Assembly (NCBI GenBank): GCA_025464975.1
Contig: JAODMT010000024.1
Location: 1 to 64,000 of the forward strand
From: Microbacteriaceae bacterium
GTDB lineage: Bacteria; Actinomycetota; Actinomycetes; Actinomycetales; Microbacteriaceae
Length of the DNA stretch: 64,000 bases
Direction: 5' to 3'
Below, piece after piece: positions 43,291-47,027 of the stretch (its first letter is position 1; each line of letters opens with the position of its first letter). A model generated the notes under the pieces. That model did not search any database and was not told the origin of the DNA. It saw nothing but the letters and a program-made list of their open reading frames with translations. The position numbers and the translations under genes are program-made.

Positions 43291-43374
43291 GCGCGAGTGG
43301 CGAAATTGGCAGACGCGCACGGTTCAGGTCCGTGTGCCCGTGAGGGCATGGGGGTTCAAGTCCCCCCTCGCGCA
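43291..43374 (+). tRNA. tRNA-Leu (CAG anticodon)
   Basis: 84-base class II tRNA: acceptor GCGCGAG/CTCGCGC, discriminator A at 43374, D-arm TGGCGAAATTGGCAGACGC, anticodon stem CACGG/CCGTG around TTCAGGT (anticodon CAG), long variable arm TGCCCGTGAGGGCA, and T-arm GGGGGTTCAAGTCCCCC. It marks the edge between the conserved kinase operon and the accessory region, so it is a plausible integration site. Confidence 0.97.
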
Positions 43375-43436
43375 CGAAGGCTGTTTCATCAAATTCAGCG
43401 ATGGGTTTCATTAAATAGGCCGAAATGAATACGGCG

Positions 43437-43601: not shown

Positions 43602-45359
43602 TTAGCGGGGCGGCGCAAGAGCTGCGGGCGAGCTGACCGGGGTGAGCGGCACTCCGGCCGCGGTCTTGCGCCGGCGTTGCCGAGGGATGGGACCGCCAAG
43701 GTCGCGTTCGGCGAGTTTGGCGAAGAAGTCATGAATCTTGCGCAGGTTAGAGGACACCGCTGCGAGGGTTGCGACGAGGTAGTTGAATGCGAATCCGCGG
43801 CCGGACCGGGATTCGGTGTGGCCGAGCTTTTCTTGGTTCTTGCCTTTGAGGGTCTTGTTGGAGGACTCGACGAGGCTCCGCATGCCGTAGATGGCCTTGT
43901 GTTCGGGCGACTTGTATGCGAATTTCTGCCAGTGCTTGATGGCGAGTGCTTGTGCCTTCGAGGACCGGCCCTTCGACAATCCCGCATCGATGGGGATTGT
44001 GATGGTTGCGGCTGTTTTCGGTTTGGCAACGCGTTTGCCGGTAGCGCGGTCGACCGCCATGTAGCCCGGTGTTGGGTAGATGAACCGCTGGTAGCCGTCC
44101 TTGTCGGGCTTCCCCTTGGGAGTGAGGCGGTACGCGCGTCGGGCGGCCAGTAGGGACAGGTACTTTGCTTTGTCGATGAGGCGTTTCGTTTTCCCGGTGT
44201 CGGGGTCTTTGACTCGGGTGCGGTAGCTGATAGTGGCGCCGATGAGGTCTTCGGGCATCCAGGTGACGTACCAGTTGCCCTCGACGAGGATGAGGTCCTC
44301 GTGACTGCTCTGCAATCCCAGGTTGGTCTTCTTGTAGTCGATGACGAGTTCGCAGCCGAGGAGTCGCAGGGGGATGTGGAAGTCGTTCACATCACCGTTG
44401 TTGTAGGCGCGGTCGCAAAGCACGAGCGCACCTGCGAAGCCGAGACGTTGGTGTGACTGGATGAGCTTGAGGCCGTGTCCTCTCAGTTCTCCTGGTCGGT
44501 GAAACCCGACGGCGGTGATGAGCGAGGGAAAGAGTAGCGACTCAAATGGTTTGTTCCAGACGAGTACGAGGGTTTCGAACTCGTAGCCGGCCTTGTCGGT
44601 TTTGGCACCCTGTCCGTCGTGGCTGCCCTGACGGCGGTAGCGACCGGAGAAGGGGTCGGCGTTTCCGCGCGTCCGGGTGAGGTCTTTCGGATTGGGCCGT
44701 CCAGTGGTTTCGATGAGCGTTGCGTCCATGGCCCCATTTCCGTGGGACCTGTCGAGAAACTCTTTCGGGAGCATGCGAACAGAAGTGTGGAGGAGCTGTT
44801 CGCAGACCCAGTCGAGGCGCTTCAGCTTCACCTCAGCATTCTTTAGGCCCTTCTCGCTGTTGGCTTTCGCCATGAGTTTGGCGTACTGCTTCTGATTGAG
44901 CTTCTTGTTGCGGGGGGATGGGAAGGGGTCGATGTACTTCATCATTCTGTCGACGTTGCTCCAAAGGCGCTTGTACCAGTCCATCCGGTCACCGGGGTTG
45001 TCATTGATACCGAGGAGGTCGAAGTGCTTGGCCCTGAAGCGGACGTCAAGCGTCCTGGCGATGGCGTTGTAGTTCACGCCGTGACCGGTTTGCACATGCA
45101 GCAGGAAGAGAATGAGAATGGCCCGGAAGGGGATGTCGGCCTTCCGGCCCGCCGCCGACTTCACCTTCAGGGCACGCCATTCCTCTAGTTGGGGTACCAC
45201 CCCGGACGTGTCGACAATTCGTGCGGCCATATTCAAGTAAGCAATCGAGGCGGGACCACGGCTGCGTTTGCGGTCGAAGTCATCGTGCCCCATCCCGAAC
45301 GTGGATTGCATGCGCGATTCGAGCAGGTCGAGGGCTTCCTCCGGACTGCTGTTCGTCAT
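43602..45359 (-). CDS. DDE transposase coupled to a tyrosine recombinase
   Basis: Probable DNA transposase. From the ATG at 45359 the product is 585 residues. The DDE triad can be read as D212 (MDATLIETTG), D316 (LCDRAYNNGDV) and E498 (SLVESSNKTLKG), the spacing and YRE-like context of IS4/IS1182-related RNase-H transposases; the N-terminal part (residues 1-200) has an Arg/Lys-rich helical region likely to bind DNA ends. It ends in a Pro/Ala tail. The start overlaps the recombinase stop in an ATGA arrangement, so the two are co-translated, which is unusual for an IS. No frameshift is visible. The exact IS family is not assigned. Confidence 0.75.
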   Translation of the reverse strand: MTNSSPEEALDLLESRMQSTFGMGHDDFDRKRSRGPASIAYLNMAARIVDTSGVVPQLEEWRALKVKSAAGRKADIPFRAILILFLLHVQTGHGVNYNAIARTLDVRFRAKHFDLLGINDNPGDRMDWYKRLWSNVDRMMKYIDPFPSPRNKKLNQKQYAKLMAKANSEKGLKNAEVKLKRLDWVCEQLLHTSVRMLPKEFLDRSHGNGAMDATLIETTGRPNPKDLTRTRGNADPFSGRYRRQGSHDGQGAKTDKAGYEFETLVLVWNKPFESLLFPSLITAVGFHRPGELRGHGLKLIQSHQRLGFAGALVLCDRAYNNGDVNDFHIPLRLLGCELVIDYKKTNLGLQSSHEDLILVEGNWYVTWMPEDLIGATISYRTRVKDPDTGKTKRLIDKAKYLSLLAARRAYRLTPKGKPDKDGYQRFIYPTPGYMAVDRATGKRVAKPKTAATITIPIDAGLSKGRSSKAQALAIKHWQKFAYKSPEHKAIYGMRSLVESSNKTLKGKNQEKLGHTESRSGRGFAFNYLVATLAAVSSNLRKIHDFFAKLAERDLGGPIPRQRRRKTAAGVPLTPVSSPAALAPPR

Positions 45360-46525
45360 TCGCTGTCCTCCCCGCGGAGGGCGGCGCGGAAGCTGGCGCG
45401 GTCGACGGTGTTGACGAATTCGAGGTACCGAGGGAGGTTTTCGAACTTGTCGAACCCGGCTGCGCGGAGGAGTTCCTTCATTCGGGTGCCGGTTTGGAGA
45501 TGGGTGACAATCCAGGTGGCTCGCAAGCGGTCGCTGCGCGGGAAGGTGCCGACGGTGTGTGCGGTGAAGCTGCTGAGCAGGTTGCTGCCATTGGTCCGGT
45601 TCGGTTTGCCCCAGAGTGGGAACTCGGTCGGGGACGCCTCCAGCGCAGGGACCATCCATTCTTCCCAGTTCCGGAGCAGAGGGACTTCTCGCGGGTTGGT
45701 CCCGCGGACGGTGATGACGACGCCGTCGGCGTCGACCGTCACGTCATCGGCGAAGACCTGAGCAATGTCGCTCGAGCGCAATCCGGCGCCGGCGCAGAAA
45801 ATCAACATCAACATTGCTTTGCGGCGCTTCTCGGCACTGACCTGCCCGACCGCCCACAAGCGGAACCCCGCCATCTCGGAGGCGGTGTACGGGCTCGCGA
45901 TGCGTTTCCGGCTCAACGGAGTAAGAGCGTCGGCATGTTCCTCGGGGGCGACTACCTCCGAGATTCGCATCAGGATGGCTCGGTAGTTGCGGCGAGTGCC
46001 TTCACCACGACCGCGGGTCCGCTGCGTGCTGTACATATCGATTGCTTGGCGGCTGAAGATGACATCGGCCTGCAGCGGCCAGCCCTGCTCCCTGACACAC
46101 CAGACCACGAAGGGGCCGGCGACAGACAGCAGCCGTTCGCCTGTATAGGCGGTGGCGGGGGCGGCGAGCATGCATGCGTCCCGGGCGAACGCTTCAAGCT
46201 CAGGGCGTTCTGCATCCAACCCCCGGGGCTGATACTTGGCCATCGCTGCGCTCACCTCCTTCGTCAAGCGGCACCCGTCGAGCACGGCGGTCACGACCGG
46301 CGAACCGCTGGCAAAGGTTCCTAGCGCCGGAGCGAGGACTTCGATGCGCTTTCTGGCCCAACTCGTGTCGCCGTAGCGAAGCTGAGTGTCGGCGGACTCC
46401 CGCCGCGGGGAGGCGACTCGCTCAGCCGCGAGGGCAGCGATGTCGGTGCTTCTGCTGAGCCGCGGCGTCTGGATGATTGGTTGCGTGTTGTTCTGCACAA
46501 CCTCTCTATGCGCGGACAGGCGCAT
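45356..46525 (-). CDS. Tyrosine recombinase-like protein with altered catalytic histidines
   Basis: 389-residue protein with a phage-integrase fold. Residues about 110-195 look like a core-binding domain (helical, TRRNYRAILMRISE). The catalytic domain has box I arginine in CAGAGLRSSDIAQ (R250), a beta-hairpin VRGTNPREVPLL, and box II RLRATWIVTHLQTGTRMKELLRAAGFDKFENLPRYLEF with R335 and tyrosine Y367. The usual first histidine of HxxR is D332 and the GH histidine is F358, so activity may be altered. It is divergent from the small HTH gene and overlaps the transposase gene start by four bases. Confidence 0.72.
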   Translation of the reverse strand: MRLSAHREVVQNNTQPIIQTPRLSRSTDIAALAAERVASPRRESADTQLRYGDTSWARKRIEVLAPALGTFASGSPVVTAVLDGCRLTKEVSAAMAKYQPRGLDAERPELEAFARDACMLAAPATAYTGERLLSVAGPFVVWCVREQGWPLQADVIFSRQAIDMYSTQRTRGRGEGTRRNYRAILMRISEVVAPEEHADALTPLSRKRIASPYTASEMAGFRLWAVGQVSAEKRRKAMLMLIFCAGAGLRSSDIAQVFADDVTVDADGVVITVRGTNPREVPLLRNWEEWMVPALEASPTEFPLWGKPNRTNGSNLLSSFTAHTVGTFPRSDRLRATWIVTHLQTGTRMKELLRAAGFDKFENLPRYLEFVNTVDRASFRAALRGEDSE

Positions 46526-46563
46526 TTGCAGGACGGCGAAAGAGGACTAAATCCGTGAACGTC

Positions 46564-46573
46564 GGTTATAACC
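46564..46573. promoter_or_regulatory. Palindrome in the recombinase/HTH divergent promoter region
   Basis: GGTTATAACC is a perfect 10-bp palindrome in the 112-base gap between the recombinase and HTH genes. It could be the operator of the HTH protein; its centre also resembles a -10 element. Inferred from position only. Confidence 0.4.
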
Positions 46574-46637
46574 CTAGGCTGGTGGAGTTTACGCTGGTCT
46601 AGAGGCTCAAAAGTCGGCCTGTTGATAGGAGTGATCC

Positions 46638-47027
46638 GTGACGGTAGGTTCAGATCCGAGGGCGTTCCGCTTCGAGCCACGTTCGCTTGTCGCCGAGCCG
46701 AAGCAGTTCGGGAAGACGAGTCTCCCCCTTGTGCCGGCGACCGATGTAGATTCCGGGGACCCGCGGTTCCTGGCCGCGCAGCTGCAACACCGGGTCGCAA
46801 ACGCGGCCCGGGAGGCGATGCTTGCCAATGGGCACTCCTTGGAAAGCTATGCGAAGCTGATGCAGGCTCCGGGTATGGCCTACGACAGGCTCGTGAGAAT
46901 CCAGCGAGGCGAAACATTGATGCAACTAGCTGACCTGGTCAATTGGGCTCAACACTTCGACAACATCAAGCCGCTTCTTGCCGATACTCGAACTTGGCCG
47001 GACGTTGCCAACCGGTTGGCGGACTAA
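46638..47027 (+). CDS. Small helix-turn-helix protein, likely cassette regulator
   Basis: 129-residue protein starting at a GTG with TAGGAG upstream (46626-46631). Residues about 45-115 have an XRE-like helical pattern: QLQHRVANAAREAMLANGHSLESYAKLMQ, then a turn and YDRLVRIQRGETLMQLADLVNWAQHF, where RLVRIQRGE resembles the recognition-helix segment of Cro/C1 proteins. The N-terminal 40 residues are basic and Pro-rich. It is transcribed away from the recombinase-transposase pair and is therefore a candidate repressor of it. No close family is recognised. Confidence 0.62.
   Translation: MTVGSDPRAFRFEPRSLVAEPKQFGKTSLPLVPATDVDSGDPRFLAAQLQHRVANAAREAMLANGHSLESYAKLMQAPGMAYDRLVRIQRGETLMQLADLVNWAQHFDNIKPLLADTRTWPDVANRLAD

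Follow-up and report, generated by a model that had tools for sequence, protein, structure and literature searches.

Transfer RNA (tRNA) 3' ends are classical integrase sites, and integrative and conjugative elements (ICEs), their actinomycete form (AICEs) and tycheposons are integrase-driven islands that insert at these ends and grow there. Insertion sequences of the DDE_Tnp_1 type are IS4/IS5-like, Tn7 has a 5-bp target duplication, and the Gamma-Mobile-Trio (GMT) systems combine a tyrosine-recombinase-like (YR-like) protein with partner proteins in cargo islands. In the Tn7-like element Tn6022, the target is selected by TnsF, a tyrosine-recombinase derivative without a catalytic site, according to PMC10293859. 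Here we analyse a 64,000-nucleotide stretch of Microbacteriaceae bacterium DNA (the window), which is the start of contig C3 in its genome (G000) and carries a cassette of a DDE transposase gene, a YR-like gene and a divergent small gene. Comparison with related sequences makes it probable that this cassette is the transposition module of a family of cargo-carrying DDE transposons that home to the 3' ends of tRNA and transfer-messenger RNA (tmRNA) genes, with the YR-like protein selecting the target. The transposon family is apparently undescribed; no description was found in the literature searched, a coverage that excluded most subscription journals and bioRxiv.

Tn6022 and the family described here are both DDE transposons with cargo and a target duplication, and they would also be alike in the kind of selector they use. 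Tn6022 has TnsA, TnsB, TnsC, TniQ and TnsE and targets comM, whereas the present family is found at tRNA and tmRNA 3' ends (for Tn6022, PMC10293859). None of those five genes was seen in the element at locus L074, the sole element read gene by gene, and the family transposase was unlike that of Tn6022 in every search, with at most weak DDE_Tnp_1 similarity. Tsy elements, as described in PMC10293859, resemble the family in having a TnsF-like protein, a recombinase, a helix-turn-helix (HTH) gene and cargo, but they use active tyrosine recombinases and split comM; the present family has a DDE protein together with a YR-like protein that lacks a conserved active site.

Organization and distribution of the module

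An earlier note on the window, made from its letters alone, described the three genes and proposed a distinct type of mobile or domesticated element. The key neighbour of the cassette is a tRNA-Leu(CAG) gene unmentioned there, and the module can be laid out as follows.

43291-43375, + strand: tRNA-Leu(CAG), the presumed target (ARAGORN), with its 3' end toward the DDE gene
43373-43377, + strand: CACGA, the presumed 5-bp target duplication on the tRNA side, placed by aligning the ends with those of delimited elements
43378-43427, + strand: transposase-side element end with a tandem motif, TTTCATCAAAT at 43384-43394 and TTTCATTAAAT at 43406-43416, spacing 22 bp
43602-45359, - strand: DDE-type transposase of 585 residues with D212, D316 and E498 (open reading frame, ORF; alignment with relatives)
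45356-46525, - strand: YR-like protein of 389 residues, the proposed target selector, which keeps R250, R335 and Y367 and is without the box-II His and box-III His/Trp
46638-47027, + strand: divergent 129-residue protein, a probable HTH regulator, with a GTG start and AGGAG upstream

The tRNA 3' end lies 227 bp from the DDE stop codon, and the module DNA is single-copy in the source genome. The gene overlap, the three acidic residues and the ribosome binding site that had been noted are all present, with ATGA at 45356-45359 common to the YR-like and DDE ORFs. No cut-off was reached by any of the three module proteins in Pfam or NCBIfam, PADLOC gave 0 matches and PHROGs only matches above E 0.05; the YR-like protein has weak integrase matches below cut-off in Pfam/NCBIfam. 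The HTH identity given to the divergent ORF fared less well than the ORF itself and is weakly supported by sequence: the window protein has no Pfam match, and its family profile is similar to the HTH_3 protein in the equivalent position of Streptomyces elements (hhalign E 1.1e-4, probability 56%).

Relatives of the DDE protein occur in 9 of the 60 genomes around the window's own, and a family profile found matches in 23 of 394 genomes of the class, the source genome being counted in both; a search for close relatives added 4 further Cryobacterium genomes. Six of 72,556 plasmid records carry the family, all from Streptomyces, as do none of 50,697 phage records. All named hosts are Actinomycetota, the coverage outside the class being close relatives, plasmids and phages. 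Both main proteins are annotated merely as 'hypothetical protein' in four Streptomyces plasmid records, so the elements are easily overlooked.

The two main genes recur together. A YR-like ORF lies beside the DDE ORF in 29 of the 35 loci scanned and a fragment of one in L081, with none in L036, L108, L109, L122 and L125. Because the overlap is 4 bp in 20 of these 29 loci (three with a TTG start) and 1 bp in two, the arrangement is not chance. The proposal of a distinct element type is thus strengthened, rarity of the pairing elsewhere being what would have counted against it. Homologues of the divergent gene were found in 10 of the 35 loci; its position is taken by an HTH gene in the plasmid elements of Streptomyces (HTH_3 in L073). 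Two YR-like ORFs each are present in L031, L032, L034, L119 and L120. A decayed copy in Cryobacterium flavum (L081:9759-11757) has its DDE gene in two frames and its YR-like gene down to 82 residues.

The second regularity is position. A tRNA or tmRNA 3' end faces the 3' end of the DDE gene in 35 of 38 distinct chromosomal places, namely 12 from the 60 near genomes, 4 new ones from the Cryobacterium search and 22 new ones from the class profile search, with pieces of one element counted as one place. The three misses are a fragment in the source genome (C3:88.8 kb), G373, where a contig end is close by, and G203. The distance between tRNA and DDE gene is 60-283 bp in all 31 loci with enough flank to measure (G010, G020, G045, G003:C137 and the three misses being left aside), and 195-258 bp in 25 of them. 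The 31 genes comprise 18 tRNA-Leu, 4 tRNA-Ser, 4 tRNA-Ala and one each of tRNA-Pro, -Met, -Val, -Gly and tmRNA. About 1% of positions would be expected at most 700 bp after a tRNA, half of them in the correct orientation (46 tRNAs in 3.22 Mb); the chromosomal places are not all independent, since related species share sites.

Element ends, target duplications and cargo

Just after the tRNA, many loci share a transposase-side end made up of a G-rich start and two copies of a motif of about 11 bp, some 22 bp apart. Scores of the tandem motif are 9/11 or better in 17 of 35 loci, as against 0.9% of shuffles that keep base composition only, and 8/11 or better in 23 of 35, as against 8%; the window's end scores 10/11, which 0.09% of shuffles attain. 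Streptomyces plasmids in which no tRNA is adjacent have this kind of end as well, and homology breaks off abruptly there: 14 of 17 other plasmid records that match up to the transposase side stop at that place, to within 1 base.

Eight elements of 5.5-11.7 kb could be delimited. They have imperfect inverted ends, which enclose both main genes, and 5-6-bp target duplications, and cargo sits between the module and the far end. The possibility raised earlier, that insertion-sequence-like ends might leave out the recombinase gene, is therefore not what these elements look like. The duplications point to DDE chemistry.

One of the eight is L074 (plasmid NZ_CP108257.1), a 5.5-kb element inside a spacer of a type I-E array of clustered regularly interspaced short palindromic repeats (CRISPR; split array at L074:4900-11100), which provides an internal empty site. 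The interrupted spacer has 13 bp on the left and 24 bp on the right, a total of 37, or 32 + 5, with TTGCA on both sides; in the part of the array that was read, the period is 61 bp apart from a single interval of 62 bp, so a 4-bp duplication is not fully excluded. The longest stretch shared by the flanks is 10 bp, including TCG, which belongs to the element end in other insertions. The far end of L074, GGGGTGTTCACGAG, recurs by matching 5-6-bp repeats in L073, L075, L107 (tRNA-Ala) and L126 (tRNA-Ala, a 7.3-kb element), that is, in 5 of 7 loci searched, L074 included.

Repeats together with similar ends delimit elements of three other subfamilies, at L116 (tRNA-Ser, 14/16), L113 (tRNA-Leu, 13/16) and L115 (tRNA-Ser, 12/16). 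Among 1190 mismatched pairings the best score was 12, obtained twice, so that L116 and L113 exceed all of them and L115 ties the best two. L074, L107 and L126 score 10 in the automatic end scan, a value reached by 148 of the 1190, and L073 and L075 were not picked by it; the case for the first three is the shared far-end sequence, and for the last two that sequence with its 5-6-bp repeats. Far ends suggested for L114 and L036 (score 11) were not accepted, and the search with the shared Streptomyces far end gave none for L129 or L125. In the five delimited elements at tRNA sites, no more than about 8 bp from the tRNA side reappears at the far end, unlike long integrase attachment sites.

Several further observations concern the ends. 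The far ends of L073, L075, L107 and L126 carry, some 50-60 bp inside, a pair of tandem sequences resembling GATCGCTTCCC/GATCGTTTCCC and spaced by about 22 bp, which differs from the transposase-side motif and is possibly for a second binding protein. A 1.4-kb stretch of a S. goshikiensis plasmid (L131:2014-3440) is probably a non-autonomous relic: it has the two element ends and a single annotated small gene, but only scraps of the module. At L129:8267-9802, an element end lies inside an NF041680-family transposase gene annotated on the other strand.

The L074 element has five genes, encoding an RlmA-like methyltransferase, a 177-residue protein and the HTH, YR-like and DDE proteins. Elsewhere the cargo includes a type-ISP restriction-like protein and a weak M78 peptidase match (L115), a CHAT protein (L116), an RHS/phospholipase-like protein with a second, unrelated DDE transposase (L113), and Fic, SMI1/KNR4, barstar and DUF proteins (L075). 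Plasmid loci with the barstar gene were tried as empty sites of L075 and rejected, as they share only a stretch inside its cargo. A protein of 177-200 residues is kept between cargo and HTH gene in L073 (6766-7299), L074, L075 and L129; the L073 copy is without a Pfam match.

Catalysis and target recognition

Among 24 relatives of the DDE protein, D316 and E498 are kept in all 24 and D212 in 22, all but L129 and L125; the L125 ORF is chimeric and has a Mutator-type part. DDE_Tnp_1 matches at E up to 0.1 were obtained for 3 of the 24, the window protein not among them, and one of the three, L123, is above the DDE_Tnp_1 cut-off (23.7 versus 23). No TnsB-type (rve) Pfam match was found in the 24.

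The YR-like family profile matches the XerC-like recombinase 4a8e with E 1.7e-11, which supports the name tyrosine recombinase as homology, not as activity. Across 30 members, box-I Arg is present in 8, box-II His in none, box-II Arg in all 30, box-III His/Trp in none and the Tyr in 13; the boxes are assigned as is established for tyrosine recombinases. Since this active site is unconserved and the DDE residues are kept, we propose DNA binding rather than strand exchange for the YR-like protein. The suggestion in the earlier note that two DNA-rearranging enzymes work together finds no support, in view of the 5-6-bp duplications and of a recombinase active site that is not conserved beside a DDE triad that is; the tyrosine-recombinase label survives as ancestry.

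What such a protein might recognize is indicated by plasmid insertions away from tRNA genes. At 7 of 10 of these sites, the outward sequence has GG[AG]TT[CT] 15-17 bp from the joint, at the place that the T-loop, in reverse complement, takes up in a tRNA. With a window of 14-18 bp, 141 of 40000 random positions in the same loci have it (0.35%). The 10 sites exclude L189, whose alignment falls short of the end, L190, whose end is altered, and L192 and L196, which repeat L191. A reader of the T-arm would account for the many tRNA types as well as tmRNA.

The mechanism that we favour would run as follows. The DDE protein would bind the element ends and join them to the target, making cuts with a 5-bp stagger. 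Binding the target's T-arm 15-17 bp from the joint, the YR-like protein would recruit the transposase much as TnsF does, but apparently with neither TnsC nor TniQ; the divergent protein would repress the operon, and new copies would insert between the tRNA and older copies. More tentatively, and somewhat short of an even chance in our judgement, the system may be an independent answer to the problem of targeted transposition: an IS-like DDE transposase would be coupled directly, with no AAA+ ATPase or TniQ in between, to a tyrosine recombinase, dead and domesticated, that recognizes the T-arm common to tRNAs and tmRNA, leaving the tRNA intact and the target reusable, so that islands stack.

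Several points weigh against this mechanism. The selector role is deduced from sequence, and the Tyr is kept by 13 of 30 YR-like members, including the window copy, which also keeps both Arg and, taken alone, may be compatible with activity. AlphaFold models are poor, with a mean predicted local distance difference test (pLDDT) of 42 and 40 in the two models. The T-arm-like motif was picked after looking at the sites and is absent from 3 of the 10. The excess of tRNA-Leu (18 of 31) is not predicted by a pure T-arm reader and suggests further contacts or shared descent. At L036, an intact-looking DDE ORF stands next to tRNA-Leu with no YR-like match beside it. No far end was accepted for 27 of 35 loci, the window copy included. 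Finally, of the termini and empty sites that the earlier note hoped to see, the former were obtained in the eight elements, but no clean chromosomal empty site emerged from joined-flank searches with two delimited elements in 23 and 59 genomes of their genera, source genomes included: matches reach about the 5-bp repeat on the tRNA side, a few run some 20 bp further, and the far flank is crossed by no other genome.

Possible stacking and the locus in the window

Past the far end and the repeated 5 bp of L113 and L126, another transposase-side end follows, which matches that of the element itself at 39/40 and 36/40 positions; no such end was seen in the other six delimited elements. On a Cryobacterium contig, a far-end-like sequence is followed by CACTG and this by a transposase-side end along with a DDE gene that is truncated. 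In the source genome, a transposase-side end at C3:88.5 kb carries TTCAGCTTTTGAA twice (an exact 11/11 pair, 22 bp apart, C3:88514) beside a DDE-family fragment at C3:88516-89064 (- strand). Second transposase-side ends past far ends are in keeping with later arrivals inserting between the tRNA and the elements already there. To the right of the window there is also a second YR-like ORF, of 340 residues, at C3:69674-70696 (+ strand).

For genomes of the same genus, alignment with the window extends as far as the tRNA 3' end, and core sequence begins again at C3:144.5-145.4 kb, so that about 101 kb (C3:43376 to about 144491) separates tRNA-Leu from the resumed conserved sequence. Other genomes of the genus have different inserts, or almost none, at this place. 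We regard this as a hotspot without a clean empty site.

Whether the window copy can still move bears on how it is read. It may be an immobile remnant whose far end has been lost, in a family that otherwise behaves as proposed, and we give this almost even standing. Searches of C3 43.4-160 or 180 kb gave nothing convincing, whether they looked for the motif in inverted orientation, for a similar end with a 5-bp repeat next to it or for the Cryobacterium far-end sequence. The sole candidate, near C3:88495, is so by position: CACCA stands directly left of the older element's transposase-side end there, and the window's tRNA side is CACGA. If new copies do land next to the tRNA, a candidate extent for the window element is 43378 to about 88495 (45 kb). 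The partner copy of CACGA is not established, and the corresponding 5 bp is CACCA in the relative G010, whose DDE protein is 97% identical. The G010 module sits at the same tRNA, so the window copy is at least shared by descent. Against loss of mobility, none of the three ORFs is disrupted and the end on the transposase side is in good condition; far ends are mostly unfound in related Microbacteriaceae too, where similarity may be too low.

Discussion

The division of labour between the two main proteins could be different from the one we favour. The DDE protein alone might recognize both the ends and the tRNA, with the YR-like protein shaping ends, excising the element or resolving cointegrates or tandem copies. 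Target choice is unassignable to either protein from sequence, tandem copies do occur, and L036 shows a DDE ORF by tRNA-Leu with no YR-like gene detected. We nevertheless think this unlikely, as the YR-like gene is so regularly and tightly coupled to the DDE gene and a resolvase would be expected to keep catalytic residues, which this family did not. That the YR-like protein is an active integrase placing the element at tRNA 3' ends, with the DDE protein as accessory or passenger, would suit a classical integrase site and the two Arg and Tyr of the window copy, but is very improbable given that the far ends of the delimited elements at tRNA sites repeat no long tRNA segment, that C3 43.4-160 kb has no second tRNA 3' end, that the YR-like active site is eroded beside a kept DDE triad, and that one element has entered a CRISPR spacer and duplicated 5 bp there.

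A targeted DDE transposon with a YR-like selector has partial counterparts among the described systems. The 5-6-bp duplications of the eight elements match a Tn7-like trait, and the YR-like family shares with TnsF-type selectors both the homology and the lost active site, though the site is not lost in every member. The family has in common with integrase-driven tRNA islands the tRNA 3' end as insertion place and island growth; it differs in that delimited elements have no long tRNA duplication, the DDE gene is tRNA-proximal and the YR-like protein is degenerate, the 30 members not having the conserved R-H-R-(H/W)-Y active site. Some members are weakly similar to DDE_Tnp_1 insertion sequences, unlike which the family has cargo, a conserved partner protein and tRNA targeting. 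The likeness to GMT systems lies in a YR-like protein with partner proteins and in cargo islands, but the GmtY model gave the window YR-like protein 19.5 bits with a cut-off of 340, and no other Gmt model matched.

These elements would give a DDE-based origin to some tRNA-linked islands of Actinomycetota, which are usually credited to integrases. If the selector role is true, a dead tyrosine recombinase would be seen in the service of a DDE transposon for a second time, and this would suggest that evolution has a general path to targeted transposition. Should the two proteins be enough by themselves, they would amount to a compact system for site-directed integration that needs no ATPase and whose target is nearly universal.

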